A DNA stretch of 64,000 nt from Hyaloraphidium curvatum (GCA_025558095.1 JAIVFI010000027.1:62001-126000); one strand, 5' to 3'. Positions 14,401-47,781 are shown, numbered from the stretch's first letter. Made by a program: numbers and translations. The notes: generated by a model from the sequence alone, not told the origin.

Positions 14401-14690
14401 CTACGGGGTCGGACACACGTTATCCATGCTGAATTTGATGCCCGCCCCCCGGACCAACGTCCACAAGCCCAAGGCGGCGGTAAGGGCCGTGACGGCAAAA
14501 GCCCGCGCGGCTCCGTAGTCGATCGCGAAGCCAAGCCACTTGCCCCTCGCCGAGGTCTCCCAGCAGGCCCAACAACGCCTCGTGGTCCGCCAACTGGGCA
14601 GTTCGCGCGTCCGCGTTGTGGGGGAGAAGCCGTAGCCATGCGGCCGCGGATCCCAAGTCCTCCGCATCCGTTCGGGGCTGATCTCTACGC
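14401..14690 (-). pseudogene. Remnant E of the CP-tail membrane protein family
   Basis: Only the C-terminal part survives: LLGDLGEG, then, after a one-base shift in a CCCC run near 14543, KWLGFAIDYGAARAFAVTAL and TLVRGAGIKFSMDNVCPTP with a stop. This matches the ends of copies A and B (VDWGVVRGLVATG, LRGAGVGVTIQSVCPA). No upstream helices of the family were found before the MFS gene, so it is a 5'-deleted, frame-shifted relic. Confidence 0.7.
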
Positions 14691-14830
14691 CGATGCGCTC
14701 GGTCGGGGCTCAGATCATTAAAACCAACGCCAGTACGTTTAGGTCGCAGAGGCGGGCGTAAAGGCGTAGACCGTCCACAGAGCTGTACGTTCTCCAGGAT
14801 CATAATCAACGTTGACGAGCTCAACAAGTC

Positions 14831-15890
14831 CTACACCTTGACAAGCATCTTCCACCCCGCCACCGACATCCTCACCCACACCAGAAAACACACCCCAACC
14901 GCGTAGATGCACCCCGCCCACAGCTGGGCGTACAAGTAGCTCGCCGACACCTTCACCCCGTCGATGTACACGGCCCCGCGGTCCACCAGCGCCCCAAACA
15001 GCGGCGCGTTGCCGAAGAAGGCGAGTGAGAAGGCGACGTACAGCGTTCCGATGGCCACGGGGAACGCTTCGATGCGCGCAAAGAGCTTGGCGACGTTGGT
15101 CCCCACCAGACCAAAGAGCGGGCCCCAGAAGAGGCCCCAGCACACCGCGAACGCGTACAGCATGGCTTCGCTGGTCCCAGCCGGCACCCAGAGCGCAAAG
15201 ATGGACAGGGCGGTGAGCGCCTGCATCAGGCAGAGCAGGTTCAGCGACCCCGCCCGGTGCACGAGCGAGCCGACCACCACGGAGGAGAGCGAGCCAACGC
15301 CGCCGTTGATGGCGAGGAGGTTGGAGCCCATCTGCGGGCTCAGCTTCATGTCGTAGGCGTAGGAGGGGAGGAAGAAAGGGGAGGGGAAGGCCCAGGCGGC
15401 GAGGAAGAGGCCGAGGAAGAGGCGGAGGAAGAGCGAGTCCTTGAACAGGGCGACGGAGAAGAAGGGTCGTTTGGGGGTGTCCGGCGACGGTTTGGGCCGC
15501 GCCGAGAGGGGGATCCGGGGGCGGAAGATGATCGCGCAAAAGCCCATGACGGCCGCGTTGACGACAGCGTAGATGCGCAGGGTCCAAGCCGGGCCGAGGC
15601 TCGCGAGCATCCTTCCCGTCGCCAGGGACCACACCAGCCCGCCGATCCCGGTGCCGCTCATCGCCAGTCCGAATGCCAGGGGGAGCTTCTTTGCGAACCA
15701 CCCCGAGGGAGCGCTGGTGGCTCCGTTGCCCGCGAACGCGCAGCCGATCCCAAACACGACGCCCTGCGTGGCCAGCACCCCGCCGACCGACGTTGTGCAG
15801 ACGAACGACGCGGCGACATTGGCCGAGACCTGCAGCGCGGCCCCCAGGAGCAGCGAAGCACGCGACCCGCTCCCTGGCCGGGGGCAAAGC
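14831..15890 (-). CDS. MFS transporter, monocarboxylate-carrier-like, 5' end missing or unresolved
   Basis: From about 15870 down, the frame encodes consecutive membrane helices: SLLLGAALQVSANVAASFVC, TQGVVFGIGCAFA, FGLAMSGTGIGGLVWSLATG, AVVNAAVMGFCAII, a charged central loop, then six more helices ending WVRMSVAGWKMLVKV. Helix order and the SGTGIGGLVW segment fit fungal MCT-like carriers of the major facilitator superfamily. The usual first helix and the GxxxDRxG-type loop are not found, and no in-frame ATG precedes the helices; the minus-strand sequence up to 16.2 kb shows no candidate first exon. It may have an undetected upstream exon or be 5'-truncated. Confidence 0.65.
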
Positions 15891-16553
15891 CGATAGTCAT
15901 ACGCCGACGAGGCTCACTCCATGCAGGATGCGTAACGATTTCACCATCCGTGGCCAACAAGCATGGGACATGTTGGGCTACAGGCGGCGGCGGTGCCGTT
16001 TGCTCGCGTCTCGCGTGACGGATGCCAAGACGGAGCCACGGATACCAAGACGGAGCCTGAAGGGAGCATGGAAAGTCAACGAGGCGATCCGAGTGAGCGC
16101 AACTTCGCAACACTCACGCTACTTCGCTGACAAGCTTCCACCAAAAATAAGAAAGCTAGGCAAGCTGCTTGATACGCAGGTTGTTTCCGTCACTTCTATG
16201 ATATGCAACTAGCTTTCGAGAACCGAGTGGCCCGAGCGCAGCAGCGCTGTAGAGTCGAGCGAAATGCACTACGGCGCGGAGCACCTGAACTGGGGCATGA
16301 CGGACGCGCTGCTTTGAGGCCGCGGGGACCTGCCCCTCGAAACTGCTGCAGATTCGACACGCGAACGTGGACGATTAGAACGCTTGTTGGCTGCTTTGGG
16401 GAGGTGGCGGGGCTGGAAATCAACACGGACCAGGTGGAGAAGAGTCTGGCGGCCGCCGTGAGCCCGACGATTGAGAAGCGGCGATCGAAGGCGCTCCGTC
16501 CCCCCGCATCGCGCCCGAAGCGCGTCCCACGCGCGCGCTACGCGGCCTCAGCG
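15891..16553. other. Region without a supported gene
   Basis: About 660 bp. I see no convincing first exon for the MFS gene and no extended start for the BTB-like gene. Open frames here lack recognisable domains and biased codon use. Confidence 0.35.
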
Positions 16554-17066
16554 ATGGCCGCGCCGAATGTGGAGGAGTTCCAGGCTGCCAGCGCCCCGCA
16601 CGACTGCGAAATCACCGCGGGCCAGGGCGACAAGGCCGTCGCGTTCAAGGCGCACCGGCTGCTGCTCCGGATGGCGTCGACGGTCATCGACCAGATGTGC
16701 GCGGACTGCGACGGTGCGGACGAGGTGGGAGGATCGGCGGCATGGCGGCTCTGCCTTGGTTGACGTGCAGGACCAGCGCCTTCCCTCTCCCGCGGTGGCT
16801 GTGGTACATTCCATACCGTGAACTGCAAATTCTTCTGCGAGGACGTGTCGGCCGTCGTGACGCGGCGGTGGAAGTTCAAGGACATCGTCAAGACCATCAG
16901 CGATCTCCCGAACGGACACGGTATCGCCGCCGACCTGAACCATCTCTACATCGAACGGATTGCCGAGGCCTATAAAAAGATCCGTGCTACCCCTCGGAAG
17001 TCCACTGCGAAGCAGGAAAGGGACCTGGTGGAGGAGCAGCTCGGCGTCATCTTTGATGGAGGATGA
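16554..17066 (+). CDS. Small BTB/POZ-like protein
   Basis: Two exons, 16554-16724 and 16842-17066, give 131 aa (GTGGGA donor; acceptor in TTCTGCGAG). The first exon carries a BTB-like opening: DCEITAGQGDKAVAFKAHRL followed by LLRMASTVIDQM, as in the strand-helix start of BTB domains. The second exon (WKFKDIVKTISDLPNGHG, LYIERIAEAYKKIR) replaces the usual remainder of the domain and is not recognised. BTB proteins dimerise and often serve Cul3 ligases; at this length the domain would be partial. It could be a truncated gene copy. Confidence 0.45.
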
Positions 17067-17413
17067 TATGCTGCCCCGCCTAGCGACAGCAGTAGCAGCA
17101 GCAGCAGTAGCAGTGACAGCGAATGACTGTACGTGCTCGATTGACAGCGAGCGGCCATAACGATCCGGGCCTCACGACGTGAACGAGCTGTCGACTTTTG
17201 AGTCTCCTGAAATCCATCCATCTCGACTATTGAGCAGCATAGAGTATCCGGAGAAACGCTCGTGCTCCGGATCCGGGAGCCGGAACAAGTTTAAGGGGGG
17301 CAGGGCTCTATCTTTCGTGTAAACTGGTGTTTGATGAACAAGTTTAGGCGCCTCGCGACTTGCCCCTGCTGACTGAGCGCCGCGATCCAGTCACCGCCCG
17401 ACCGCACCCCGCC
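17067..17413. repeat. Intergenic region with an AGC/AGT microsatellite
   Basis: A short trinucleotide-like run of AGCAGT/AGCAGC units lies at about 17087-17120 right after the BTB-like stop. The rest, up to the kinase start, shows no gene; the kinase promoter is expected here. Confidence 0.5.
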
Positions 17414-19388: not shown

Positions 19389-19553
19389 GCTCCATCTTGA
19401 AAGCGGCCGGGAATTGCCTCGGTTTGCGGCACGAGGAACAGGAAACAGACTTAGTCGGGCTAGAACTGATTAGACTGGCAATGGAGATGATCATTTCGGA
19501 AAGTCTTGGCGACATCGAAGATACGTCGTACTCTCACTACCTGTTGAAGGCGC

Positions 19554-20702
19554 CTACAACTTCGCAGCCTCGCTGCTGGGATCCTCGGCAACGTCGATGA
19601 CGACCTTGCCGTACGACTTCCTCGACGCCAGATCCTCCAGCGCCTCCCCGACCTTGTCCAGCCCCTTGTACCTCTTCCCAAACACCAGCGGCTTGGGCTT
19701 GAGCCGGCTCGCAAACAGCCTCCCGACGCCCTCGATCGCGGGCTCCCACAACTCGGGGAACTGCGCGAACGTGCCGCCCTGGGTCACGTGGAGCACGTTG
19801 ATCTGCTTGACGAGGAGGATGTTGGTGCGCACGCGCTCGGGGGTCTGCGGGGTGCGGCCGGTGAAGCCGACGAGCATGACGCGCGAGTGGGGGGCGCAGC
19901 ACTTGAGGCCGGCCTCGAGCTGGCCGACGATGTCGACTGCGGGAAGCAAATGAACACGGGATCACGTCTGCGGCAGAAGACAAGACCCACAGAACACGTC
20001 GACTCCGGGGAACTTCTTGCCCGCCTTGACGGTGAGCTCCTTGACCTTGACCGCCCAGTCCGGGTCCGCCGAGTAGTCGAAAACGTAATCTGCCCCCAGC
20101 TGCCTGCACACCTCCATCTTCTCCGCCGACCCGCACGTCGCGACGACCGTGCAGTTGAAGTACTTTGCGATCTGCACGGCCGCGCAGCCCACGCCCCCGG
20201 CAGCTGCGTTCACGAGCACCCACTCCCCCTCCCTGATCTTGGCCCGGTCCACGAGCCCGTGCCAGCTGGTCACATAGTTGCCCCTGAACCCGCACGCCTC
20301 GCGCAAGCTGAGCTCGGGCGGCACCCGGTTCACGTCGTGCGAAGACCGCGGGACCACGGCGAGCAGCTCCCGTGCACAGCCACCGGTGATATAGGGCGCG
20401 ACGGAGCCGTAGACGCGGGTGCCGGGTTGCAGGGGGAGGAGGTGCTTCAAGTGCGGGTTCTGGGCCGCGCGCGGGCCGACCTCCGCCACGACACCACTGT
20501 ACTCGTGGCAAGGAACGAAGGGCAGCTCGGGCTTGTACTGGTACGTGCCCGCGAGCAGCAAGATGTCCGGGAAGTTGACGGAAACGTGGACGATCTTGAT
20601 GAGCAGGCCGTCCGGGGGACACGCTGGCGCCGGCACGTCCTCCACGCAGCCCGCCGCGTCCCGCGGGTTCGGCATCGCCCGGCGGATGAGAATGGCTTTC
20701 AT
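19554..20702 (-). CDS. Quinone oxidoreductase-like zinc-free MDR enzyme
   Basis: Exons 20702-19991 and 19936-19554 give 364 aa (GTGGGT donor, 54-nt intron). The N-terminal GroES-like part has SVNFPDILLLAGTYQYKPE and PFVPCHEYSGVV; the Rossmann part has NAAAGGVGCAAVQIAKY and LGADYVFDY. This matches NADPH:quinone oxidoreductase/QOR2-like proteins, which reduce quinones or enones in the cytosol; Zn-binding cysteines of true alcohol dehydrogenases are missing. It is divergent from membrane copy A with 132 bp between the starts. Confidence 0.88.
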
Positions 20703-20834: not shown

Positions 20835-22343
20835 ATGGCATCGACCGACGCGCTGCCGGGCCGTTTTTCGCTCGACGCCTCGGGGCTGCTCGCTATTTTC
20901 CCCCTTCCGGTGCCTGGCAACGCTCCGCCGCCCTACCCACGTTCCCTCGGCCCCGGCGATGTCCGTTCCAAGCCCAACGATGTATTCGACACGTTGGCAG
21001 CAGGTGCTGCGCCCCTGACCCCGGTGGACGTGATTCGGCGGCTGGAGGATGCCGGCCTCAAGGCGCTGGCCATCCTGGTCCGCGCCTGCGGCACCCCCGC
21101 CGTCGCGCCCGGCCTGATCTCACTCTGCGGCATCGCGACAACCGCGTTGGTAATCGCCATCTCGGCCACGATGTTCCCGCTGAACGACGGATCCTTTGGT
21201 ACCGCGCAAATCGCGGTCGCAGTGGCGTCCGTGGGTGCACTTTTCTTGGGCGGCGCCTGCACCGTTGTCGTCGTTGTCTTCGCTCTTGCCGCGGCGCGCC
21301 GCGGTTCGTCGAACAGGCCTGCGTACAACGCCTGGTTCGCGGCGACTCTGACGCAGACTTGCCGGTGGTTGGAGCTTTGCGAGCCAGGGAGGGCAAGCAA
21401 GCTCGTGGAGCACGTCCCTGGGGATCAATACTGCACCTGCCGCGACTGCTGCGCTGGACTCCTTCGCTTGGCCGTCTGGGACCGCGTGGTTCGTCCCGGT
21501 CTCTTCCACACACTCGCCATCTTCATCTTTTTTGTCCCCCTCTGGACCCCGCTGGTGCGCTTCGGCCCGGTCTTTTGGTCCCGCTGGTACGGCATGGCCC
21601 TCGGCATTGCCTTTATCGTTGCTGAAATCGCGTGGAACCTCACGAGCGCGCTCACGCGGGTCTCGGCTTCCAGCACCGCGGACGTCCGCCTCCGCACGAG
21701 GATTTACCGCCGCGCGACCGACCTCGCGCTCCGCGATTTCCTCGCGCGAGCGCGTGCGGCGCTCCTCCACGGCACTGCGGTCGACGGTCCGGGCACTACG
21801 GAACTCTACGCCTCCCTGCATGCTGCCTACGAATCCCGCTGGCGTGCGGCACGTGCCGTCACGGCATTCTCCTCCAACGCCTTCACTACCATCATCTCAG
21901 TCCTCTACCCGCTCCTCCTGGTGGCCGGCGCCGTCGCCAACATCGCCGTGGGATCCTGCATCCCCCTGTGGCTCCTCCTCTTCCTGCTCCTCACCTTCGC
22001 GCTTCTCTTCATCGACCTCGCCCAGCTCCCCGCCGCCAACGACCAGATCGACGCCGTCCTCTCGCTCTACATCGACGCCCGTACCGCGCTCCAGTCCATG
22101 CTCGCCGAATCCGCGCGGCTGGGCACCAGAACCGCCGCGCGGGAGCTCAAGGAGCACCTTGGCCTGCTGGCGTCCTTTGGCGCCTCGGACAACCTGCGTG
22201 CGACGTTCGTTGGGATCGTGGTCACGTGGGGGCTTGCCAAGACCGCGGTGGTGACCGTAGTGACGCTGGCGGTGGCGCTGTGGAGCGTGCTCAGGGGGGT
22301 CGGCGTGGGGTTCACCGTCGAGACAGCGTGTCCTTTGGGTTGA
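20835..22343 (+). CDS. CP-tail multi-span membrane protein, copy A
   Basis: Intronless, 502 aa. I count six or seven hydrophobic blocks: near residues 95-115 (ISLCGIATTALVIAIS), 125-152, 222-243 (LFHTLAIFIFFVPLW), 252-272, 345-395 (probably two helices) and 462-488. A cytosolic or lumenal loop holds the family's cysteine motif QYCTCRDCCAG near residue 200. The end reads VTWGLAKTAVVTVVTLAVAL, a Gly-rich turn and FTVETACPLG. No known domain is recognised. It is the most complete single-exon member, and its hydrophobic layout is shared with copies B and D. Function is unknown; a channel or sensor is possible only by topology. Confidence 0.8.
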   Translation: MASTDALPGRFSLDASGLLAIFPLPVPGNAPPPYPRSLGPGDVRSKPNDVFDTLAAGAAPLTPVDVIRRLEDAGLKALAILVRACGTPAVAPGLISLCGIATTALVIAISATMFPLNDGSFGTAQIAVAVASVGALFLGGACTVVVVVFALAAARRGSSNRPAYNAWFAATLTQTCRWLELCEPGRASKLVEHVPGDQYCTCRDCCAGLLRLAVWDRVVRPGLFHTLAIFIFFVPLWTPLVRFGPVFWSRWYGMALGIAFIVAEIAWNLTSALTRVSASSTADVRLRTRIYRRATDLALRDFLARARAALLHGTAVDGPGTTELYASLHAAYESRWRAARAVTAFSSNAFTTIISVLYPLLLVAGAVANIAVGSCIPLWLLLFLLLTFALLFIDLAQLPAANDQIDAVLSLYIDARTALQSMLAESARLGTRTAARELKEHLGLLASFGASDNLRATFVGIVVTWGLAKTAVVTVVTLAVALWSVLRGVGVGFTVETACPLG

Positions 22344-23945: not shown

Positions 23946-26088
23946 TCAGGCGGCGACGAGAGCCTCCGCGACGTTCTCCTCGCCCTCCTCGGCATCCCAG
24001 TCGAAGCCGTAGAGCGCCTCGGGCACGCCGTCGAACTCCTTCTCGGCCTCCCTCTCGATCTCGGCGAGCAGCTTGGGCGGGACGAGCACGTCGCCGACCA
24101 CGTGGACGACGCCGTTGGCCGCGGGGATGTCGGCGAACTTGACCGTCGTCTCGCCGTCGATCTTGATCTGGCACCGGGCGGGAAAAGGGTCAGCCCGAGG
24201 CGGCGAGCTGCGCGGGGACAGGATATACCCACGACCTTGCGGGTCTTGCCGCGCTCCTTCTCCTCCTCGACGGTCAGCGAGAGTTCCGTGCCGTCCAGCA
24301 TCCCGAGCTTGGCGGATCCGGCCTCGAACACGGGGGGCGAGTAGGCGAGGTTGGCCGAGACGTGATGCAGGAGGATCTTGCGGAGCTTGGTGAAGCCGAG
24401 TGGGCTGAGGAGGTACCGGAGCTTCTTGAATCCGAGCTGAAGAGGCGAGTCACGTCAGTATTGGGCGGGCGATGCATCATTGACGAGACGCAGACCTTCA
24501 TGAAGGCGCGGTCGGTCGGGGCAAACACGGTGATGGCCGACGAATGCACGAGGAGACCGGTGACTTCCGCACGTCGCACGGCTGCGGAGAAAAGATGGAA
24601 GAAGGGGAGGCGCGCGAGCTCGAAAACGACGGGTGCGGGGGGAATCAGAGGTCTGGTAAGCAGGGCGTGAGTTCGAAGACAACGCGGTGCAGTGCGGACG
24701 GAACTCACCCGCCAATCTCGTGGACCAAGCCGTTCGAGGCTTCGATGTCGGCGCGGCGGACCGGGGCACGGCAGTTGAGCAGGAAGACCTTGTCCTGTAG
24801 CGGAAGACCGTGAGCAAACGCATCCAACGCACCCGCGCGCTGCGGGCGAGACGTACCACAGACTCCTCGTCCTCGTCGTCGTCATCCTCACCGCCGAACG
24901 CGCAGACCTTGATCACCTGCTTGCCGCCCTTGAGGCTCTCGAGCTCCAGCGCCGTCTCGAGGAGCGAGCCGTCCTTGAGGTCCGAGGCCCCGACGGACTT
25001 GCCGAGCGCGTGGTAGAGCAGCGCCTTGTGGAGGAACTCCCTGCGGCGCTCGCTCTCGTTCTTGCCGTCGCCGAGCAGGTCCGAGAGCAGCGGGTCCTCG
25101 AAGGGCAGGGCCGGCACCGGGCCGGGGGGCCCGGGGGGACCGACGACGCCGGGAGGGCCGGGAGGACCGCGAGGAGGGAACGGGGGGCCGAGCGGAGGGC
25201 CTTCGATCGGGGGTCCAGGAGGGCCGGGCGGTCCAGGAGGCTCGAAGGGCGGGGCTCCGCCAGGGCCGTCAGGTGGGGCGGGCCTCTCCCACTCATCGCT
25301 GCTGACCACTTCGTCGCTGTCCTCGAACCAATCGGGCTTTCTTCCAGGGGGGCCGGGACGCTTGCCGAAGGGCGGGGGAGGGAACTTGCCAGGCCCACCT
25401 GGCGGCGGGGGCCCGTCGGGGGGTCCGCCAGGCCCGCGGGGAGGGCGAGGAGGTCCGCCGGGGCCGCCGTGCGGGGGAGGGGGGAACTTGCCAGGGCCGC
25501 CGGGAGGGGGGCCTCCGGGTCCACCGTGACCAGGAGGGCCGGGAGGACCGCCGTGACCAGGAGGGCCGCCGTGACCGGGAGGGCCGCCGTGACCGGGAGG
25601 ACCGCCGTGACCGGGAGGGCCGCCGTGACCGGGAGGGCCGCCGTGACCGGGAGGACCGCCGTGACCGGGAGGGCCGCCGTGACCGGGAGGACCGCCATGG
25701 CCAGGAGGACCACCGTGACCAGGAGGACCACCGCGGCCAGGAGGACCGCCGGGGCCGTGGGGGCCGTGCATCAGGATGCGGAGGATGGCGTCGTCGTTGG
25801 GGGCGAACAGGGTGAGCGGGCTGCGCAGTCCGTCAGCCCGACGCGGAACAATCGCGCCGCCGCGAGAACGCACCCGGGGCCGTCGAGCAGCTTCTTGACG
25901 TCCTCATCCTTGCCGACGATCTTGCCGAGGAGGTGCAGCTGCGGGTCGGTGTCGAGGATGCCGGCGACGGAGCGCGCGTCGGCCGCGGGGACTTCGAGGT
26001 CGGAACCGACGGTCTGCTGCGCGTACGGCAGCGCCCGCGCGACGCCGGCAAAGGCCAGCACCGCGAACGCGGCCACCGGGATGCGCAT
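23946..26088 (-). CDS. Secreted fasciclin (FAS1) domain protein with Gly-Pro-rich insert
   Basis: Six exons read as 26088-25874, 25820-24857, 24794-24709, 24652-24496, 24436-24233 and 24167-23946, giving 615 aa. A signal peptide is clear (MRIPVAAFAVLAFAGVARA). The first FAS1 domain is opened by LTLFAPNDDAIL, immediately interrupted by a GHGGPP repeat tract and a Pro-rich linker, and resumes with FLHKALLYHALG and ASNGLVHEIGG. The second FAS1 domain has LPFFHLFSAAV, ITVFAPTDRAF, LRKILLHHVSANLAY and ANGVVHVVGDVLVPP. FAS1 domains mediate cell-surface adhesion. The H1/H2-like motifs are good; the insert is unusual. No clear C-terminal GPI signal is seen. Confidence 0.85.
25500..25770 (-). repeat. 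18-bp minisatellite encoding GHGGPP units
   Basis: About 13 near-identical 18-bp units run in tandem inside exon 2 of the fasciclin gene and keep the frame, so the protein carries a collagen-like but His-containing tract. Single-base variants are mostly silent. Such a tract is prone to length change. Confidence 0.85.
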
Positions 26089-29843: not shown

Positions 29844-30319
29844 GGATCCTGCAATCGCACCTGACGGCCGCCTGGCGCGGCCGCATCAACTGGTTCAACA
29901 CGGCCAGGGCCCACCTGCTCGCGCCAGCGGGCCTGCTCGACGCCGCGGGCGCCGACGCCGACCTGCTGGCGACGTATTTGGATGCGGATCGGTACACCGT
30001 CCGGTTCCTGGGGATCGTGGTGAGCTACGGGGTGATCAGGACGCTGCTGGTGACAATGGTGACACTCGCGGTGGCCCTCTTCTCGGTGCTGAATGGATTC
30101 GGGGTCACGGTGACGCTCTCTGGGGCGGGCAGGTGGACGGCGGACGTGAAACCCCATTCGCGTCGGGCTTCGAGGTCTGGGTCTGTAGAGGGTCCGTTCC
30201 GCGCGGCTCCGGATCCCAAGCGGCAGCCGATCAACCAATTTTCTAACAATGTTTATGGAAGTACGCCAGGCGGCAGCCGGTTAGCGTTGCGCAGATACAA
30301 GGTAGCAAAGTATGCTTAG
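29840..30319 (+). pseudogene. Remnant F of the CP-tail membrane protein family
   Basis: The open frame encodes FLGIVVSYGVIRTLLVTMVT and LAVALFSVLNGFGVTVTLS, matching the last helix of copy A (FVGIVVTWGLAKTAVVTVVT, LAVALWSVLRGVGVGFTV), plus a diverged ARAHLLAPAGLLDAAG helix before it. The Cys-Pro end is lost and the frame runs into unrelated sequence. All upstream helices are missing. It is a 5'-deleted copy, possibly still read as a 159-aa open frame. Confidence 0.65.
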
Positions 30320-34478: not shown

Positions 34479-37022
34479 ATGGCGTCCCCGCTCCGGACCG
34501 CTTTCGGGGGTTCCTTCCGCTACGAAACCGGGATGCTGCTGTGCAAAAGGACGCTACGGACGTCTGCCGTGGCGCTGCCGGCGTGGGCCGTGGCTAGGAG
34601 GCCGTCCGGCGCCCACATTCCTGTCAGCCCGTTCGTGCTGCCAGCAATTGGCCGCCGACACGCCCACGCCGCGGCCACCGACGCGGTGCTCCTCGACGTC
34701 GGCGGCATGAAGTGCGCCGGCTGCGCCGCCAACGTAAAGAAGGCGCTCGCCGCCGACGACCGCGTGGCGTCGGCGACCGTCAACCTTCTGACGCACACCG
34801 CGGCCGTCCGACTCAAGGGCGGCACCGCCGACGCCGCATCGGCGCTCGCCAAACTGCTCACGGCCCGCGGCTACCCGGCGACGGTACGGAAGCCGGACGA
34901 CGACCCGTTCCTCGCCCCCGCCGAATCCTCCCCCGAAGCGGACCGACGCAACCGCCGGGACCTCGCCCTCGCCTGGCTGCTTGCCGGCACCGTCGGCCTG
35001 CACCACGCCGGCCACCTGCTCTCCGCCCTGGGCTTCCCCTCCCTCGCCCATTCCCCACTCCTGCACGCCCTGGGCACACCCCTCGTCTCCGGGGCCGTCG
35101 GGCTCGCCGCGCTGCTCGGCCCCGGCCGCACCATCCTCCTCTCGGGCTTCCGCGCGCTCCGCCGCCGCGAGCCGGACATGGACTCCCTCGTCGCGCTCGG
35201 AACGGGCGGCAGCTTCCTCGCCGGCGCCGCGTCGATGCTGGCCCCCGCGGGGTCGCCCTTGGCGGGGCTGGCCGGGGACGCGCCGTCGTTCCTTGGGGAG
35301 CCGGCGATGCTTCTCGCGGCGGTGCTGCTCGGCCGCGCTTTGGAATCCCGCGCCCGCGCGCGTGCCGCGGCCGACCTCGGCTCCTTGGCCGCGCTCGTGC
35401 CCGCCCGCGCGAGGATCGTGCTCGACCCCGCGGATCCGAGCGCGGTGGTCGACGTTCCTGCGGGGGAGGTCCGCGAGGGTGATGCGGTGCGCGTGCTACC
35501 CGGGGAACGCATACCCGTCGACGGCATTGTGCTGTCTGGCAAGGGCTCTGCGGACGAATCGGTGCTCACCGGCGAACCCGCGGCGGTACCCAAACCCCCC
35601 GGTGCCAAGGTGTCCGCGGGCACGGTGGCCTGGGGCGCACCGATGGACGTCAGAGCGGAGAGGGCGGGCAGGGCGACGCAGCTGGCCGGGATCGCGAGGC
35701 TCGTGAGGGAAGCGCAGGCGAGGGAGGCGCCGGTCCAACGGCTGGCGGATTGGGCGGCGGGGAGGTTCTGCGCGGGGGTGATGGCTGCCGCGGCGGCGAC
35801 GTTCGGGTTCTGGAGCACGCTCGGCGCGGCGTGGTTCCCGGCCGCCGCCGGGGGCGCCGCGCTTTCGGGCCCGGCGCTGGCGACGGCGGCAAAGCTCGCG
35901 ATCGGGGTGCTCGTCGTCGCGTGCCCGTGCGCGCTGGGGCTGGCGACGCCCGCGGCGGTGCTGGTGGCGTCGGGGGCGGCGGCGAGGAGGGGTTTGCTGT
36001 TGCGGGGGGGAGGGGAGGCTGTGGAGAGGTTGGGGGGTGTGGATGCGGTGGCGCTGGACAAGACGGGGACGCTGACGGAGGGGAGGCTGGCGGTCGTGCG
36101 GATCGAGGCGGTGGGGCACGTGCGGGAGGAGGAGATGCTGGCTCTCGCGGCGGCCGCGGAGTCGACGACCAAGCACCCGCTCGCCGAGGCCATTGTGGCG
36201 GCAGCGCGGGACAGAGGCTTGGACGTGCCGGCCGCGATCCACGCCGAGGCGTCGACCGAGACGGGCGCGGGGCTCGCAGCTTCCATCAACCGCGGTGGGG
36301 AGGTGGCCGAGGTGCTCGTCGGCAGGCGGGATTGGGTGCTTTCCAAGCTCGGGATCGCTGATGAGGGACGCGGGCAAGTCGGCGAGCAGGACGACGTGGG
36401 ACACACCGAGGTCTTTGTGGCCGCGGCCGGCCGCCCCCTCGGCACCATCTTCCTCGCGGACCGGCTCCGCAGCGACGCGGCATCGACCGTCGCGGCCCTC
36501 CGCGCCATGGGCATCCGCCTCGCCATGCTCTCTGGCGACCGCCCCGCCGCCGCCCTCGCAGTTGGCACTGCCGCCGGTCTACTCCCCCATGAAATCACCG
36601 GCGGCCTCACCCCCGACGGCAAGCTCCGCGCTATCGAGTCATTGCGCTTCCAAGGCCTCAAGGTGGCCATGGTCGGGGATGGGGCCAACGACGCCCCCGC
36701 GTTGGCCGCCGCGGACGTCGGGATCGCGCTCCGCGGCGGGCTGGACGCGGCGGGGAGCGCGGCGGACGTGGTGCTCGGGGACAGGCTGGGCCAGGTGGCC
36801 GAGGCGGTGGTGCTGGGGCGCAAGACGATGGGCACGATCCGGGGCAATTTGGCGTGGGCGCTGGGGTACAACCTGGTCGGGATTCCCGTGGCGGCGGGGG
36901 CGCTGCTGCCGGCGTACGGCGTGGTGCTGCCGCCGAGCGTCGCGGGGGGTTTCATGGCGGCGTCGTCGCTGGCCGTGATGGCGAACAGCCTGCTTCTCAA
37001 GTGGAGGTTGGGGGGACGCTGA
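34479..37022 (+). CDS. Copper-type P1B ATPase with one N-terminal metal-binding domain
   Basis: Intronless, 847 aa. An HMA domain at about residues 68-135 holds GMKCAGC. The P1B core is complete: LTGEPAAVPKP (actuator TGE), ACPCALGLATPAA (transmembrane CPC), DKTGTLTEG (phosphorylation Asp), TKHPLAEAI (the HP dipeptide) and GDGANDAPAL (hinge). After the core come two helices with GYNLVGIPVAAGAL. These pumps move Cu(I) across membranes using ATP. The 60-residue Arg-rich N-terminus before the HMA domain could be an organelle-targeting or Golgi-sorting extension. It is long and intronless in an intron-rich neighbourhood, compatible with retroposition or bacterial origin. Confidence 0.93.
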   Translation: MASPLRTAFGGSFRYETGMLLCKRTLRTSAVALPAWAVARRPSGAHIPVSPFVLPAIGRRHAHAAATDAVLLDVGGMKCAGCAANVKKALAADDRVASATVNLLTHTAAVRLKGGTADAASALAKLLTARGYPATVRKPDDDPFLAPAESSPEADRRNRRDLALAWLLAGTVGLHHAGHLLSALGFPSLAHSPLLHALGTPLVSGAVGLAALLGPGRTILLSGFRALRRREPDMDSLVALGTGGSFLAGAASMLAPAGSPLAGLAGDAPSFLGEPAMLLAAVLLGRALESRARARAAADLGSLAALVPARARIVLDPADPSAVVDVPAGEVREGDAVRVLPGERIPVDGIVLSGKGSADESVLTGEPAAVPKPPGAKVSAGTVAWGAPMDVRAERAGRATQLAGIARLVREAQAREAPVQRLADWAAGRFCAGVMAAAAATFGFWSTLGAAWFPAAAGGAALSGPALATAAKLAIGVLVVACPCALGLATPAAVLVASGAAARRGLLLRGGGEAVERLGGVDAVALDKTGTLTEGRLAVVRIEAVGHVREEEMLALAAAAESTTKHPLAEAIVAAARDRGLDVPAAIHAEASTETGAGLAASINRGGEVAEVLVGRRDWVLSKLGIADEGRGQVGEQDDVGHTEVFVAAAGRPLGTIFLADRLRSDAASTVAALRAMGIRLAMLSGDRPAAALAVGTAAGLLPHEITGGLTPDGKLRAIESLRFQGLKVAMVGDGANDAPALAAADVGIALRGGLDAAGSAADVVLGDRLGQVAEAVVLGRKTMGTIRGNLAWALGYNLVGIPVAAGALLPAYGVVLPPSVAGGFMAASSLAVMANSLLLKWRLGGR

Positions 37023-37076: not shown

Positions 37077-37087
37077 AGCACTTATTC

Positions 37088-38079: not shown

Positions 38080-38873
38080 TGCGCGGCGGGGGGTGGCAAA
38101 CGGCACAGGGGATGCCGTAAGATATCGGTGTATATTAGATCTAGGCGTTTTCGTTGTAGCAGGGGCTGTTGATGGACCTGAATCTTTTCCTTGACCGGTA
38201 TGGAGAGCGGGTTGTTTGGCTGGGGCGTCGTTGAGGCGTCGAAAACAACTTGCCCGCCGGCCCGGACAGACCGGCAAACGGCCAACCCACCTTTCCTCGG
38301 CAAACAAAGGCAGTCGAAGGAAGCGGTAAAGCAGCACTGGGCGGCTCTGCATTATGGCACTTTTGCGACGGCGGGTTTTGCAGGCAAAAGCTCGGTCCGC
38401 CCCGAATTACGGCAGCCAGATGAGCGACGAAATCAACTCATCCTCCAAGAATAGACCATCTATGTAGCCCATACACAATGCAAACTCGCCATGGCAGCCA
38501 ACAGTACCACGCACATCCTCTTCCGACCCTAAACAGGCCAAAAATCACCCGCCGCCGCGCCGTTACCGCGGCCTAGTACTCGTCTGCATGACGCAGATGG
38601 TCGTGATCACCACGATCGCATATAGGCGTCGTTGACACGCGATGCGGCGCGGCGACACCAACAAAGATCAGGACCCGACCCTGGCACAACCTGAGGAGCT
38701 GCTGTGGAACGAATCTGCCAGTTCTCGTCCGAAAAACGTAACGTAACTTGCGCAGATGCGGATGGGTCGCGGCTGACTGTTTACCCAGGGTGACCCAGCT
38801 GTGCAACCCCCCGGCCTGGGCTCTGCCGGTCAGCTTACGAGTAGGCGCCATGCATGTTCGTTTTTTGCATGCA
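38080..38873. other. Intergenic region with a duplicated fragment
   Basis: About 790 bp of lower GC. The only feature I can support is the 56-bp copy of the channel gene's 3' end (listed separately). Near 38850-38876 an inverted repeat of ATGCATG type around a T run could act as a 3'-end hairpin for copy B. Confidence 0.4.
38565..38620 (-). pseudogene. Fragment of the ligand-gated channel gene 3' end
   Basis: This stretch matches 40942-40998, the last codons and stop region of the channel gene, with about five differences by eye (shared core CTGCATGACGCAGATGGTCG). On the minus strand it lies just downstream of membrane copy B, so B is bracketed by direct copies of the same sequence. Confidence 0.75.
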
Positions 38874-40421
38874 TCAAGCCGGGCACACGGACTGTATCGT
38901 CACGCCCACCCCCGCGCCCCGCAGGATCCCGAACAGACCCACCCCCAGCGTCAGCCCCGTCGCCACCAGCCCCCTGACCACGCCCCAATCCACCACGAAC
39001 CCGAACATCCGCGCCAGATCCGCCCTTGCAGCGGCGTCGAACCGAGCCAGCACCTCGGCGTGGGCCCTCCACCGCGGCGCGTCGTGGTGGTCCGGCTCTC
39101 GGGCGGCGCACAGTGAGAGCTGGGTCCGGGCGCGTGAATACAGCTCCGCGATTCGGGAGACGCCGGCGTTGGCGGAGACCACCGTCACGACGACGCGCAG
39201 GAAGAAGAACACGCTGATGGCGAGTGTGCCCAGGACGTAACCAGGGAGGCAGCCGGCCGCGACCATGGAGACGCAGCCGACCAGCACGACCATCCCGACC
39301 ATGGCGGCACTGACGGAGGACGAGGTGGCTACGTTGTGGCCGAGGGTGCGCCACGCAGGTAGAAGGGAGGAGTGCAGGGGGACGTAGGGCTCTTCCTTGG
39401 GCCAGGGGATGTTTTGGGCGTCGTCCAGGGAGAGGTAGCACCTGCGAAGCAGGTCCGAGAGGGCGAGAGAAACAGCCCGAGAGCGAAGGCGGGCCTGCAG
39501 GGCGAGGAGCGCGGGGTCGCTCGATAATGCGTCCATGGCGATGCTGCAAATGGAAAAGGTGTGGTAGGCGAGCACCCAGGCAGCCAGGAGAGCACGCCAT
39601 GGGGAGTTCCACGTAATGCTGCCAAAGTAGACCATAGCGGTCCAGAACTGGAGCGGAGCCCAGATAAATAAGCCAGATGAAGCATGGAGGAAAACCGAAG
39701 TGGCCTGGAGCCACGCCGACCGGCGGACGAGAGATCCGGAGCATGATTCCGCGGGGCAGGTGCACGCGTCGTCTCCAGGGTCGTGCCTTACCAGCGGGTC
39801 TGTGCCGCCGCCCAAGCCGAGCTCGGTTGCGTCCCCGCCGGGCAACCGCAGTTGCCCTTCGCTTCCACAGAGTTGTCTCCACCTCGCGTAGCACGCGAAC
39901 GCGTGCTGATCGGGAAACTTGAGCAGTGCATGAGCGGCATTTGTTGTCATACGGGCCAGGAAGGCAGAGGGTAGCTCGAGAGCGAGGAAGACGGTTAGGC
40001 CAGTCACGATTCCCCTCGTGTTGAAGTCGCCCGAGTCCATTGCGACGGGCCACAGCGTGCAGGCAAAGAGTGCGAAACGGGGTGCCGAGTATAGCAAGAA
40101 GCGGGCGATTACGTTGCCATTGATCCCCGGGTTGTTCCACTCGACCGCCAGCAGCGCGCGGTGGACGGGCGAGCCCGCGAACGCGCGTGCCAGCCCGTCC
40201 CGGGTCAGCGACGACGCCTCACGCGCTTCCTTTGCGGGGTCGCTTTCAGCGAACCCGGGCGGGGCCCCGGTAGGGGCCGCAGAGGGCCTGGTGGCCCCCG
40301 GGAGCAGGCAGAGCCACGCGGCCGCGCTCAGGAACGGGCCGGCGGCCACCCGATCCGCGTGGTTGGTGGGGAACATGGCCGTCGCGTTGTTGGGCAATGA
40401 AGCGGATGTGAGGCCCGGCAT
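38874..40421 (-). CDS. CP-tail multi-span membrane protein, copy B
   Basis: Intronless, 515 aa; a second ATG at 40376 would remove 15 residues. Hydrophobic blocks: residues about 108-125 (LLYSAPRFALFACTLWP), 137-157 (IVTGLTVFLALELPSAFLA), 245-300 (two or three helices), 370-415 (AMVGMVVLVGCVSMVAAGC, then a second helix) and 475-500. The cysteine motif is DDACTCPAESCSG. The end reads VDWGVVRGLVATGLTLGVGL, then RGAGVGVTIQSVCPA. It is about 85% identical in DNA to copy C at the N-terminal end and nearly identical over the last 200 bp. No known domain; function unknown. Confidence 0.8.
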   Translation of the reverse strand: MPGLTSASLPNNATAMFPTNHADRVAAGPFLSAAAWLCLLPGATRPSAAPTGAPPGFAESDPAKEAREASSLTRDGLARAFAGSPVHRALLAVEWNNPGINGNVIARFLLYSAPRFALFACTLWPVAMDSGDFNTRGIVTGLTVFLALELPSAFLARMTTNAAHALLKFPDQHAFACYARWRQLCGSEGQLRLPGGDATELGLGGGTDPLVRHDPGDDACTCPAESCSGSLVRRSAWLQATSVFLHASSGLFIWAPLQFWTAMVYFGSITWNSPWRALLAAWVLAYHTFSICSIAMDALSSDPALLALQARLRSRAVSLALSDLLRRCYLSLDDAQNIPWPKEEPYVPLHSSLLPAWRTLGHNVATSSSVSAAMVGMVVLVGCVSMVAAGCLPGYVLGTLAISVFFFLRVVVTVVSANAGVSRIAELYSRARTQLSLCAAREPDHHDAPRWRAHAEVLARFDAAARADLARMFGFVVDWGVVRGLVATGLTLGVGLFGILRGAGVGVTIQSVCPA

Positions 40422-40949
40422 TTATTTCTAGCGGAGTGTGGAGCATGCAGTGTTGCCTCGGGATCCAGGGGATTCCCGCCCCAGGCCGTGGCTCGTTACC
40501 CCCGCATCGCCCTCGGAGTCACTAGCTCGGATGCTAGTGAGGTCGATCGTAGTTTGATTATTCTCTCCTGATTCAAATAGCAATTCACGTTTGTCGGGCT
40601 CCGGCCGCCGCGCGAAATGGCCGAGTCCGCTCAACAGCAACCCTCTTACCGCCTCAACGGGCACCCTCTGCACGTCTCCGTGACCCCAAACCCGTCCGGC
40701 ACCGGACATAGCACTGCGGGGCGCGTTCACCAGCGTCATTGGCTGCGTCGCGATGCCCGGCTTGCTCGGAAACCGGGCCGCACCCGTGCCCATCCACGTA
40801 GCTCTCGCACGGAGCCTCCGATCCTCCAATCAGGCCCCTGCGTGCAGTTGCACTCCGTTCGGGGGCCCCGGGAGGCCGAGGGTGCAAACGGCCGGGCCTG
40901 TCGCTTCCGCAGGGCGCAACGACCCGCCACCGCAACGGCGCACCGCGGC
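40422..40949. other. Intergenic region, no gene seen
   Basis: About 530 bp between copy B's start and the stop of the channel gene, same strand. It should contain B's promoter and the channel gene's 3' UTR. Nothing else is recognised. Confidence 0.35.
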
Positions 40950-42143
40950 CTAGGTCCTCGACTGCATGACGCAGATGGTCGTAATCACCACGATCGCAAC
41001 GACGAACTCGGTGGCCAGCGCCACGGTGTTCCAGAACCGGATGCTCTTGATGACCTCCTTCTCCTTGACCTTGTTCTTCCTGAGCTCCGCCTTGCGCGTG
41101 CGCTTCTCGTCCTCGTCCATGAGCTCCTCCTCCTCCCTGTGCGCTTCCTTCTCGTCCGCGCGGAACTCGAGGATCCGGTTGTTGTCCCAGACCACGAGAC
41201 CGAAGGTGGAGATGATCAGGAGGTAGCAGAAGACGTAGATCTCGTCCATCAGCGTGAGCCCCGAGATGACGAGGTTGGTTTGTTGCAGAAAGACGGCCGT
41301 GAGGAGCGCGGTGGCGCTCATGGCCGTGCGCACCTCGACGTACTTGGGGTGCAGCACGAGCGAGAACCACGAGGAGATGACGACGAGGCAGAGCGGGAGG
41401 AGCAGCCGCCAGATGAAGAAGTTCTGCCCGCGCTCGATGACCAGCGAGAAGCGCACGGCCGAGTACTCCTCGTCCTCGGGCGCGCCCGTGACCCCGAAGT
41501 TGCTCTCGTAGTCGTGGATCATGGTCTCGGCCTGCAGGTCCACGAGGTTCCAGCCGGGGACCACCAGGAGCGCGTCCAGCCCCGATTCGGCAAAGTCGGG
41601 GACGTACACGATGTGGTCCCGCTGGTGCACCGAATCCTCGACGTTGAGCGTGAGCCGCTGCTGGTCCAGCGGGAAGTTGCGCAGGTCGAAAGGCTGGTAC
41701 ATCAGGCCCTGGATGTGCAGCTCCTGCACGAGCATGCCGTCGGCGGCGACCGTGGGCTGCTCCGTGACCTTCTGCACGGTAAAGTCGACGTCCTGGACGC
41801 CGTTGTTGATCTCGAGCGATTTTATCGGGTCGTAGTCCGTCCCGTTGGGCCAGCGGAACCAGAGGTAGCCCGTGAGCCAGTACGTGTTTTTCGAAGTGTC
41901 GAGGTCGTAGGCGTTCATGGCGTAGAACCCGACCGAGACGACGGTCGCGTTACCCGGCGGGGCGGTCTCGGGGCGGTAGTAGCCCGGGACGGGGGCGCGC
42001 CCGGATTGGGTGCGGCGCGGGCGGCACGCGGCGCACCGCGACGCCCCGTTGAAGCGCGCGAGGCCGGCGGCGGCCGCGGGGAGCAGGCTGAGCGCGGCGA
42101 CGGCGAGGCCGAGCAGCAGGAGCGCGGGGAGGCGGCGGCGCAT
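40950..42143 (-). CDS. Pentameric ligand-gated ion channel (Cys-less Cys-loop receptor type)
   Basis: Intronless, 397 aa from ATG 42143 with a signal peptide (PALLLLGLAVAALSLLPAAA). The extracellular beta-sandwich has YWLTGYLWFRWPNGTDYDP and FDLRNFPLDQQRLTLNVED, the latter being the loop region of the superfamily but without the two bridging cysteines, as in bacterial members. Four helices follow: M1 FIWRLLLPLCLVVISSWFSL, M2 MSATALLTAVFLQQT, M3 IYVFCYLLIISTFGLVVW, M4 WNTVALATEFVVAIVVITTI. A charged loop lies between M3 and M4. Such channels gate ions on ligand or proton binding at the plasma membrane. They are known from animals, bacteria and scattered protists but not generally from fungi. 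Confidence 0.88.
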   Translation of the reverse strand: MRRRLPALLLLGLAVAALSLLPAAAAGLARFNGASRCAACRPRRTQSGRAPVPGYYRPETAPPGNATVVSVGFYAMNAYDLDTSKNTYWLTGYLWFRWPNGTDYDPIKSLEINNGVQDVDFTVQKVTEQPTVAADGMLVQELHIQGLMYQPFDLRNFPLDQQRLTLNVEDSVHQRDHIVYVPDFAESGLDALLVVPGWNLVDLQAETMIHDYESNFGVTGAPEDEEYSAVRFSLVIERGQNFFIWRLLLPLCLVVISSWFSLVLHPKYVEVRTAMSATALLTAVFLQQTNLVISGLTLMDEIYVFCYLLIISTFGLVVWDNNRILEFRADEKEAHREEEELMDEDEKRTRKAELRKNKVKEKEVIKSIRFWNTVALATEFVVAIVVITTICVMQSRT

Positions 42144-43839: not shown

Positions 43840-44234
43840 CGCGGGCGCCGCGCTGCAATCACGAGGTCCGGCGGCGCGATCCGTGCCGGATGGCGCAAGA
43901 GAAGTGACGAGGGAGGAGGAGTCCCGCCGTCCCGCCGCCCGAACCCCCTGGCTGGGCCCGATGCGTCCCTCGACTCGATCCCCTGAAATTGAGCCCGCCG
44001 GACTTGGGGCCGGCAGACGTTTCCGTAGCACCACGGCATCGGTGCATCGGATCCGCACGTGCCGTGCGGTAGGCGGTTGCCGGTGTGGTATCGCAAGGGG
44101 CACCGGAAGGACACGCCGCGGGAGGATCCGCTCACGGAAACCCGAGCCTCCGAGAACGACACTGCCTTCAGGCTCATCCGGATTGACGGTCCTGCCGCGG
44201 TCCGAGCCAGGCTTCCGTCGATCATGCCGTCGCC
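43840..44234. other. Divergent promoter region
   Basis: A 395-bp gap between the pyruvyl transferase-like start and copy D. No gene and no clear element. Confidence 0.35.
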
Positions 44235-45763
44235 ATGGGGCCCAAGCTCGACCCAAGGGATTCGGCATCCGCCTTCAATAGCTCTCAAATGTCGTTCACT
44301 CCGGACGAGTGGTTCCTCTTGGTGCCGCTACCGCCTCAGGGCAACGTGTTTACCTCAGGTTCGCCCGACGACGGCGCGGCCGAGGCCCGCGCGGCCCGCC
44401 CTCTGACTCGCGCCGAGCTCCTCCGCTGGACGCGCGGCAGCGGCCTGCTGCACGCGCTGCTGCGCGCGCAATTGGAGCTCGGCCCGTGGACGGGGCGCGT
44501 GCTCCTGCGCATGTTGCTCGTGATCGCCGTGTCGATGGTGCTGCTCGTGCCGCTGTGGACGCTCAACGCGGGGCGCTTCGGCTTCCGGCAGCTTGTGGCC
44601 GGCACCGTCGCCGCCGCGCTGTTCAATGCCCTGACGCTGGCCACGTGGGCGATCGCCGCCACCTTCCGGGGCTCCTATCTGCAGTGGAAGCAGGCACCCG
44701 CCGGCCCCGCAACCCGAGATCCCGCCGCGGCGGACGCCTGCGCTCACCCGTTCGCCCCGCTGGCGCTCTGGGCCCGGCTCGCTTCCTCCGAATCGGCCCC
44801 CTCCGACTTGCTCAAGGCCCCTGACCGCGATCCGACGCGCACAGCTGCCCTCCTGGAGCACAGGGACGACGACCCGCTCTGCCCCTGCCCCAACCCCGCG
44901 TGTTCCGGCACCGCCCTGGCGCGGGCCGCCGCCGTGCGGCTGCTCGAGATGCTCGCGCGGATCGCCGTGTCCGCCGCATTCACCGTCTGCGTTGCCTGGA
45001 CGCCCATGGTCACCTTTGCCGCCGATTTCTGGACGAGCGGCTGGGCGGCGGCGGGGGCATTGCTCGGTGCGTTCCCCCCGGAGCCGTTGCTGCCGCCGTG
45101 CTTGACCCGCCCGCCCGCCAGTCGTCTCGTTCGTCAACGCCGTCGTGGTGAGCAGCATCGGCCGCTTCGGCACCAACGTCGCCGTCCTCCGCCTCGCGCT
45201 CCGCGTGCAGGCACCGCGCCGCCACCTCCGCCCTGCGCCGGCTGCTCGACCGGCTTCGGGCCGGTGCGCCGCCTCCCCACGGGGAGGAGGAACTCTACGT
45301 CCGGCTCCACGCCGCGCTGCGGACCACCTGGGAGAAGCAGTTCACCGCCGCGCTGATGACCTCGGGCGGCTACCTCGCCGGCGCCGTCTTTTCGTGCTTC
45401 CTCGCCATCGTCATCAACCTGGTGCATGCGTCACCCGCATCCCATTCTTGTTCCTTGCTGACGACGTTCGCAGATCGGCGGCTCCTGCGTCCCCGCCTAC
45501 ATCCTCTTCCACCTCCTCGGCACCCTCCTCATCCTCCTCATCGACCTGGTCAACATCGCCGCCTCCATAGGCCAGCTGGCGCAGGTGGTCGCGCTGTACG
45601 GCCTCGCGCGGCAGGAACTCCTGTTCACCGTGGCGATCGTGCTCTGGGGTGGGTCGCCGCGTTCCGCACGCCCCCCCAGGGAGGTGCTGACGCTCTGTTT
45701 GGCAGGATCATGCGGGGGTCGGGGATATTCGTCACGCCGGACGTCGCCTGCCCGTTCTATTGA
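44235..45763 (+). pseudogene. CP-tail multi-span membrane protein, copy D, one frame break
   Basis: Exons 44235-45067, 45122-45421, 45474-45652 and 45706-45763; the first three junctions fit (GTGCGT donor first), the last donor (GTCGCC) is weak. An alternative start is ATG 44289. Family features: two N-terminal helices (LLVIAVSMVLLVPLWTLN), the cysteine motif PLCPCPNPACSG, a helix AVSAAFTVCVAWTPMV, GGYLAGAVFSCFLAIVINL, the IGGSCVPAYILFHLLGTLL helix, and the end IFVTPDVACPFY. A one-base break near 45203 (CTCCGCGTG) switches frame before RAATSALRRLLDRLRAG, which aligns to copy A. Unlike A-C it has introns. Either a fresh pseudogene or a sequencing error. Confidence 0.65.
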
Positions 45764-46791
45764 CCCGCTGCTGCGGTAAAAGAATCCCCGCCATCTTCCC
45801 GCGGCCCTCCCCTCTTCTCGACGTACACGAACCTCCCCACCGCCCCGTCGTCCTGGCCCAGGCTGTACGTCGCGAGCCCCAATCCGTCCGCGGCCTCGTG
45901 CAGCCGCTTCCTCTCCTTCGAGTAGAGCCCGTGCACGGGGCCAAAGAGCTTCAGGTTTCCGTCGGCGAGGAAGCCGGACAGCAGGCGGGCGTAGTCCTCG
46001 GCCGTCGTCCTTTTCGCGAATGCGGACCGCTCGAAGTTGGGCAAATCGGAGTCGCGGGGGTCCCGCAGAGTCTCGATGACGCTGTCCAGGTCGCGCCGTT
46101 GGGGGCGGAGGACAAAATCGGAAGGGCGGGAGTTGCCGGTCTCGCGGGCCTCGCGGAGCTGCGCACCAGTCAGCGTCGCGGGAAGGAGAGCCGTGACAGC
46201 GAAACGCACCTTGGAAACCGGCACGGATTCCTCCGCCATACTCTCAAGAAGCATCTCCCACCTTTCCGCCACCGTCGTCCTCGGCATCGCCACCCGCGGG
46301 AACGGCCCCGGATCCTGCCCCAGGCACACCCGCAGCGCGGCGTCCAGAACGCGCAGCCAGTCCTTCCGAGCTTCGAGCTGCCGCAGCAGCATGAATCTGC
46401 CCGATTCGAACTCGCCCAGTGCGTCGAGCACGTCGAGCGGGGCCGAGGGGGGGCGGGAGGGGAAGCGGGTCATGGTTGGGCCGGCGGGTTCGTCGGCGAG
46501 GCGTTCGCGCACGCGGCGGAGGACGCGCATGAACGAGGCGCGGGAGCAGCCTTTCAGGTCGTCTTGCGTCACGGCGCCCGCAAAGGCCGATTCGTCGAGC
46601 GGCACGCCGCGGTAGCCGGGCAGCGCGTCCGCGACGCATTCCGGCGCGTCCGCCGTCGCGGCGCGCCACATCGGCGAAAGGTCCGCCGGGAGGCCCTCCC
46701 GCTCGACAAAGATTTCAAAGGCCACCGCAGAACGGAGACAATGGGCCAGGTGCGGGGCCACCAGCTCCGCCAGCAGCGCGAGGCGATCCAT
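45757..46791 (-). CDS. R3H-like domain protein
   Basis: Intronless, 344 aa from ATG 46791. The last 60 residues (LYSKERKRLHEAADGLGLAT then YSLG, closing in RFVYVEKR) match the R3H pattern of Arg plus His three residues apart followed by a short beta strand, a fold that binds single-stranded nucleic acid. The N-terminal 270 residues are helical and unassigned, with a stretch ERWEMLLESMAEESVPVSK. Its stop overlaps the last 7 bp of copy D on the other strand. It is divergent from copy C, 114 bp apart. Confidence 0.6.
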   Translation of the reverse strand: MDRLALLAELVAPHLAHCLRSAVAFEIFVEREGLPADLSPMWRAATADAPECVADALPGYRGVPLDESAFAGAVTQDDLKGCSRASFMRVLRRVRERLADEPAGPTMTRFPSRPPSAPLDVLDALGEFESGRFMLLRQLEARKDWLRVLDAALRVCLGQDPGPFPRVAMPRTTVAERWEMLLESMAEESVPVSKVRFAVTALLPATLTGAQLREARETGNSRPSDFVLRPQRRDLDSVIETLRDPRDSDLPNFERSAFAKRTTAEDYARLLSGFLADGNLKLFGPVHGLYSKERKRLHEAADGLGLATYSLGQDDGAVGRFVYVEKRGGPREDGGDSFTAAAGQ

Positions 46792-46905
46792 GTTGTTTAC
46801 CGAAGTCAAGGGATTTGGCCGCGCAAATTCCTGCCCATCGATCCGCGCGCGTTTCGCGAACTGCCAGGCCTCCCATCCGCCTCATTGCCCGGCAACGCCA
46901 CGGCG

Positions 46906-47781
46906 ATGTCTGGGGCCGACCAGGTCGATCGGGTGGCCGCCGGCCCGTTCCTCAGCGCGACCGCGTGGCTCTGCCTTCTCCCCGGGGCCACCAAGCCCTC
47001 TGCGGCCCCCGAAGGCGCGCCGCCCGGGTTCGCGGAAACCGACCCCGCGAAGGAAGCACGTGAGGCATTGCCGCTGACCCGGGCCGAGCTCGCACGCGCG
47101 TTCGCGGGCTCGCCCGTCCACCGCGCGCTGCTGGCGGTTGAGGGGCACAACCCGGGGATCAACGGCAACATTTTCGTCCGCTTCGTTACTTATTCGGCAC
47201 CCCGTGTCGTGCTCTTCGCCTGCACGCTGTGGCCCGTCGCCGTGGACTCGGGCGAGTTCATCAAGAGGGGAATCGTGACTGGCTTTAGCCTGTACACCGC
47301 TTTCGAGCTCGCATTCGCCATCCTGGCCCCCGTGACGACAAAGGCCACGCAAGCATTGCGACATGTTCCGGACGAGCATCCTTTTGCGTGCTATGCAAGG
47401 TGGAGGCAGCTCTACGAGGAGGGGGCAGGGCAACCGTCGTGCCCTACTGCGGACGGAACCGAACTCGGGCCTGGCGGCGGCACAGATCCCCTCGTGCGGC
47501 ACGACCCTCTGGATGACACGTGCACATGCCCCGCGGCGGCATGCTCCCGGTCCCTGGTCGACCGCTCGCCCGACGCGCCGCGGTGGAGGGCCCACGCCGA
47601 GGTGCTGGCGCGCTTCGAAGCTGCGGCGCGGGCGGATCTGGCGCGGATGTTCGGGTTCGCGGTGGATTGGGGCGTGGTCAGGGGGCTGCTGGCGACGGGG
47701 CTGACGCTGGGGGTGGGTCTGTTCGGGATCCTGCGGGGCGCGGGGGTGGGCGTGACGATACAGTCCGTGTGCCCGGCGTGA
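46906..47781 (+). CDS. CP-tail membrane protein, copy C, internally deleted
   Basis: 291 aa from ATG 46906; the upstream ATG used in copy B is a CTG here. The first 185 residues follow copy B closely (DRVAAGPFLSATAWLCLLPG, VTYSAPRVVLFACTLWPVAV, DDTCTCPAAACSRSLVDR). It then jumps directly to DAPRWRAHAEVLARFEAAAR and the shared end QSVCPA, so about 200 codons holding the middle helices are missing while the frame is kept. A protein of three or four spans would remain. It lies in the opposite orientation to B, 6.5 kb away. Confidence 0.75.
   Translation: MSGADQVDRVAAGPFLSATAWLCLLPGATKPSAAPEGAPPGFAETDPAKEAREALPLTRAELARAFAGSPVHRALLAVEGHNPGINGNIFVRFVTYSAPRVVLFACTLWPVAVDSGEFIKRGIVTGFSLYTAFELAFAILAPVTTKATQALRHVPDEHPFACYARWRQLYEEGAGQPSCPTADGTELGPGGGTDPLVRHDPLDDTCTCPAAACSRSLVDRSPDAPRWRAHAEVLARFEAAARADLARMFGFAVDWGVVRGLLATGLTLGVGLFGILRGAGVGVTIQSVCPA

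Follow-up and report, generated by a model that had tools for sequence, protein, structure and literature searches.

The insect taste and smell receptors (GR/OR) are tetrameric ligand-gated cation channels in which TM7 is split into 7a and 7b and the long helices TM4-TM6 extend into the cytoplasm. Two other groups of seven-transmembrane (7TM) proteins are GPCRs, with the N-terminus outside, and the PAQR/haemolysin-III receptors (PF03006), with the N-terminus inside. For the 7TMIC proteins (insect GR/OR/GRL; 7tm_7, PF08395, and 7tm_6), the TM7 motif (T/S)Yhhhhh(Q/K/E)(F/L/M) is diagnostic but not definitive (Benton et al. 2020, PMC7746228). Chytrid GRLs are known as single-copy genes only (PMC7746228); those of Spizellomyces, one per genome, keep one of the four TM7-motif positions (Benton et al. 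2020, PMC7746228), and no 7TMIC-type proteins were found in the fungi screened by Benton and Himmel (2023, PMC9998090). The Pth11-like and DUF6534 fungal 7TM families, treated as GPCRs, are lineage-expanded and presumed to be sensory, with up to ~40 Pth11-like members per genome in one survey (PMC12842992). What part chemotaxis plays when chytrid zoospores locate their hosts is little known (PMC5334607).

The family analysed here shares with the insect GR/OR/GRL proteins a predicted 7TM, N-in/C-out arrangement with short outer and long cytoplasmic loops, a conserved C-terminal helix and large size with birth and death of genes. Like the Spizellomyces GRLs it is 7TM and receptor-like and comes from what is probably a zoosporic fungus; the TM7 motif, absent here, is largely lost in them too. 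It numbers hundreds of copies against their one per genome. Lineage expansion and a presumed sensory role are shared with the Pth11-like and DUF6534 families, which differ in their GPCR orientation and carry other Pfam domains. The PAQR/haemolysin-III receptors are likewise 7TM and N-in; their motifs differ, however, and none of 21 members matched PF03006 even at E values as high as 1.

Six loci in the window and their genome-wide family

The window, the whole 64-kb stretch of DNA that was analysed, contains six loci (A to F) that the original prediction had grouped as a dispersed family of multi-span membrane proteins. We compared a profile HMM, built on 30 members across the genome that included A and none of B-F, with all six-frame segments of the window. 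The profile matched exactly these six loci, with E values from 1.6e-113 to 3.5e-16, while the next-best segment had an E value of 0.084. Hydrophobic bias is not the source of the match: the window's Cu-type P-ATPase and ABCG transporter were unmatched, and the family's invariant residues are H, C, D, R, N, W, T and G.

Copy A (20835..22343, + strand; E 1.6e-113), whose residue numbering is used throughout, is intact and encodes a predicted seven-helix member of 502 aa. Copy B (38874..40421, - strand; E 8.7e-57), also intact, encodes 515 aa and is 31% identical to A across 326 aa (E 4e-30). Copy C (46906..47781, + strand; E 4.4e-23) is an ATG-to-stop ORF with its central third gone, the missing part being equivalent to B residues 236-446 (~210 codons). 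It is an inverted near-duplicate of B. Their DNA identity is unequal along the gene, 81% over the first 690 bases versus 95% over the last 211 nt, which suggests gene conversion of the 3' end between B and C. Copy D (44235..45763, + strand) is decayed and frameshifted (E 4.2e-20, second frame 1.4e-7), its N-terminal half lying in one frame to ~45060 and its second half in another, 45152-45760. Relic E (14401..14580, - strand; E 3.5e-16) consists only of the last helix and C-terminal tail, ~60 residues, and relic F (29882..30112, + strand; E 3.2e-17) of the last-helix region, ~75 C-terminal residues without the final CP.

The varied decay described in the original prediction is borne out, with B and E now placed on the - strand and with E and F shorter than predicted. 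A CxC..C motif, claimed for all six loci, is present in A-D; E and F cannot carry it, since they are only C-terminal fragments. The predicted Gly-rich turn after the last helix corresponds to a conserved C-terminal tail, LRGxGVxFTxxxxCP. Since three widely separated clades are represented, one by A, one by B/C and one by D, the window is no recent local array, the B/C pair excepted. A direct repeat of 56-57 bp, 93% identical, lies on both sides of gene B (window positions 38565-38620 and 40942-40998); it has no further occurrence in the DNA examined and is possibly the trace of a duplication or insertion that placed B.

Genome searches with A and with B each yielded ~85 scored candidates, all highly significant, from ~700 first-look candidates. 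The C-terminal motif, written as a degenerate pattern of 26 bases, occurred 81 times, versus 6 for the reversed control. The union of the searches contains ~204 loci on 42 contigs, a few of which are chance pattern matches, and capture-recapture gives 277-463 loci, a rough figure given the non-independence of the captures. Almost every full-length member is one open frame, typically of ~500 aa; other genes of the genome have introns. No meaningful Pfam match was obtained for 21 members and none in a PDB sequence search, in keeping with the earlier view that no known domain is present; a PDB profile match to succinate dehydrogenase (E 1.2) was dismissed as chance. The family, at least ~200 predicted seven-helix membrane proteins, is previously undescribed. 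Relatives were sought in viral and prokaryotic collections and none were found, as expected of a eukaryotic family.

Median pairwise identity within the family is 26%, and dN/dS in close pairs is 0.19-0.41, indicating that the copies are maintained by purifying selection. The expansion with birth and death of genes that had been proposed is supported. The local density proposed with it holds as modest clustering, with 58 of the 140 loci on contigs of known length having a neighbour at <20 kb (39.5 expected, simulation maximum 59), and not as a local array in the window beyond B/C. Elsewhere in the genome, a local run of at least three copies (G000:C41:362738-371727; L019, L020 and L029), 71-88% identical with dN/dS ~0.28, is a recent tandem expansion. 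Retroposition, considered in view of the intronless genes and 3' relics, is unsupported as a spreading mechanism, A-tracts being found in 0 of 58 downstream flanks. Such 3' relics may just be those most readily detected.

The assembly comprises 31.9 Mb in 55 contigs, and the window has a GC content of ~66%. Several chitin synthase genes (best E 5.4e-182) and a multi-exon gene for CFA20 (BUG22-type; E 3.7e-34), a protein tied to cilia, were found in the genome, and a genome search for chlorophyll-binding (light-harvesting) proteins found none. A zoosporic (flagellated) fungus is the simplest reading of these three results, and the genome is probably that of such an organism. A radial-spoke search of the genome, which had no working control, gave no match. 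Apart from the six loci, the window carries eukaryotic genes of an ordinary sort, which encode an ABC1 kinase, a MYND-finger protein, the Cu-type P-ATPase, a pyruvyl transferase-like protein and the ABCG transporter. The heavy-metal (Cu-type) P-ATPase, with an HMA domain, occupies one 847-aa open frame (34479-37022) and is thus poorer in introns than the genome's chitin synthase genes, which are multi-exon. A tandem array of an 18-bp unit (25539-25751; 11.8 copies, 91% match) lies inside a - strand ORF (24455-25873) that has a sub-threshold Fasciclin match and probably encodes a repeat-bearing protein. Outside the window, a microbial-type (fungal) rhodopsin gene (G000:C15:695381-695795, L069) adjoins an MTP18 gene. 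No guanylyl cyclase domain was present in the pieces scanned, unlike the rhodopsin-guanylyl cyclase fusion reported from Blastocladiella.

Predicted topology and conserved residues

Topology and conservation were derived from 44 full-length aligned members, using hydropathy and the K/R density of the loops. Hydropathy predicts seven hydrophobic segments in all 44, and in every one K/R residues are enriched on the loops expected inside. The K/R density is 0.026 in EL2, 0.004 in EL3 and 0.025 in the C-tail, versus 0.09-0.12 in the inside loops; EL1 alone matches the inner loops in K/R content. The bias in 44/44 members argues for the N-in/C-out orientation, and the prediction of seven helices so oriented is well supported. 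The same method applied to Gr43a and Orco gives a similar pattern of short outer loops and long IL1-IL3, but their EL2 is longer.

The region before TM1 is poorly conserved apart from Pro23, and the outer segments are short (10, 13, 6 and 15 aa). TM1, a short outer loop and TM2 are followed by an inner loop of ~64 aa (IL1) containing RW..L and an H-D-C-C-C cluster, H193-x3-D197-x2-C200-x-C202-x2-C205 in A (21411..21449, + strand). His193, Cys202 and Cys205 are found in 44/44 members, Cys200 in 43/44 and Asp197 in 41/44, and the last spacing varies across the alignment as C202-x2/4-C205. The cluster is a candidate metal site in predicted cytoplasmic loop 1; as its cysteines are predicted to be cytosolic, a metal site would be likelier than a disulfide. 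TM3 is followed by a 13-aa outer loop with WT..V....W, and TM4 by a 72-aa inner loop with Arg289, Arg293, an amphipathic helix and then E.Y..LH......W, ahead of TM5. The six-residue TM5-TM6 turn, predicted outside, contains Cys375 (21957..21959, + strand), present in 44/44 members. Beyond TM6, a 63-aa inner loop with Asn402 and LY leads to Gly460 and TM7. Conservation within the family peaks in TM7 and the tail (22236..22340, + strand), with Thr477 in 44/44 members, Arg487 in 43/44, and Gly490, Thr494 and Cys499. The outer tail of 15 aa ends at the invariant C499-P, Cys499 (22329..22331, + strand) being present in 44/44 members. A disulfide between Cys375 and Cys499, both predicted outside, is possible. 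Both the Cys-bearing outer tail after TM7 and the cytoplasmic H-D-C-C-C cluster are absent from Gr43a and Orco.

Sequence and fold comparison with insect receptors

The GR/OR relationship was set down as a hypothesis ahead of any fold search. The GR/OR profiles used for comparison were shallow, one made from Gr43a, its ortholog and two Orcos and the other from a C-terminal alignment that adds BmGr9, and hhalign of the family profile against them returned a probability of 0.1%. A helix-by-helix profile scan gave no collinear signal and no residue-level correspondence. The TM7 motif was found in 0 of the 44 members, its Thr alone being invariant; Thr477 could be the same Thr as in the motif, in an alignment made by eye and without statistical support. 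A search of the genome with PF08395 was empty, and uninformative, as the control was equally silent. The motif and profile tests thus do not support membership in 7TMIC, and we do not claim it.

The first AF2 model, of the full-length protein (pLDDT 46), had no GR/OR match among 20 chains compared. A second model, of A residues 66-502, was built from a five-sequence alignment of window sequences only and had a mean pLDDT of 56.4 and a pTM of 0.50. At this confidence (pLDDT 56) the TM4-TM7 regions are modeled as helices of 64, 52, 52 and 57 aa, TM7 being one 57-aa helix with a confidence dip at model positions 393-397, the conserved Gly460 site. Foldseek with this model returned no significant E-value, Gr64a ranking 16th (E 1.4). 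When the Foldseek candidates were aligned by VIA-align, the top row was BmGr9 (8vc1; Z 9.3, rmsd 6.1, 252 residues), although a Z below ~13 for helical bundles may mean a common arrangement only. Insect GR/OR entries accounted for 7 of the 28 top rows. The six below BmGr9 8vc1 (Z 6.9-8.2, 244-279 residues) were OR28 (AgamOR28; Z 8.2, 267 residues), OR5-Orco (8.0, 249), BmGr9 8vc2 with fructose (7.3, 279), OR10 (AaegOR10; 7.2, 265) and two Gr64a entries (7.2 and 6.9). Nearly all other rows were soluble coiled coils, helical bundles or single ABC transporter domains, with shorter or ill-fitting alignments. The insect receptors are thus the best structural match of a low-confidence model, and a GR/OR-like fold is weakly supported.

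The same results could be produced by a new 7TM family with a fold unrelated to that of insect receptors and some other role, in signalling or as a channel; the GR/OR match would then reflect only a generic long-helix bundle. The low confidence of the model, Z values within the helical-bundle range and the lack of any GR/OR sequence similarity or Pfam match are what such a family would give. However, GR/ORs make up a very small share of the PDB and yet supply the top row and the longest sensible alignments, and an N-in/C-out layout with long IL1-IL3 is rare, so that we regard an unrelated fold as a serious but somewhat doubtful alternative.

Proposed function and remaining alternatives

The likeliest reading, which we put forward tentatively, is a lineage-specific 7TM receptor or channel repertoire that works like the insect GR/ORs. 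That the family is a true branch of the insect taste and smell receptor channel superfamily, expanded on an insect scale (several hundred genes) in a zoosporic fungus, seems to us rather unlikely.

The invariant polar and Cys residues (His193, Asp197, Cys200/202/205 and Arg293) could also make up a metal or active site if the proteins were transporters, enzymes that modify lipids or other membrane proteins of a housekeeping kind, amplified to serve metabolism or stress. This is improbable, as Pfam gives no match, the invariant H, D and R are predicted to sit in cytoplasmic loops and not within the helices, and 200-400 copies with their low median identity suit recognition more than a single chemistry. 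The surface or defence role that the original prediction had suggested, with the genes serving self/non-self recognition or surface variation, would agree with the birth-death pattern and its relics and with the converted 3' end between B and C. Beyond that pattern it found no support: the copies are under purifying selection, the short outer segments offer little surface to vary, and no link to defence genes was seen within the window. We consider it very improbable, the N-in/C-out 7TM layout pointing to a receptor or channel instead. Least probable of all is a GPCR class new to fungi, for which seven helices and the expansion of fungal GPCR-like 7TM families in single lineages (Pth11-like, DUF6534; PMC12842992) would speak, but whose N-outside orientation is the reverse of that given by the positive-inside signal in 44/44 members, which also have no Pfam GPCR match.

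If the family is a GR/OR-like repertoire, its members would be expressed in zoospores, every copy supplying a subunit to an oligomer that acts as a ligand-gated channel or as a receptor. The effector part common to all copies, the pore, would be built from the conserved last helix and tail, and ligand specificity would lie in the variable helices 1-6; the long stretches by which helices 4-6 reach into the cytoplasm may serve as an assembly domain. The H-D-C-C-C cluster would bind metal in the cytoplasm, and a Cys375-Cys499 bond would hold the tail against the TM5-TM6 turn. The likeliest use of such proteins would be chemical sensing by flagellated spores, and we propose the family as candidate chemical sensors of fungal zoospores.

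The receptors by which flagellated fungal spores find substrates and hosts are little known, and the family offers ~300 receptor-like 7TM genes for testing. Should the fold prove to be the one seen in insect receptors, this channel architecture would have expanded into a sensory repertoire outside animals. If the family is a true branch of the superfamily, fungi would possess a previously unknown repertoire of chemoreceptors.
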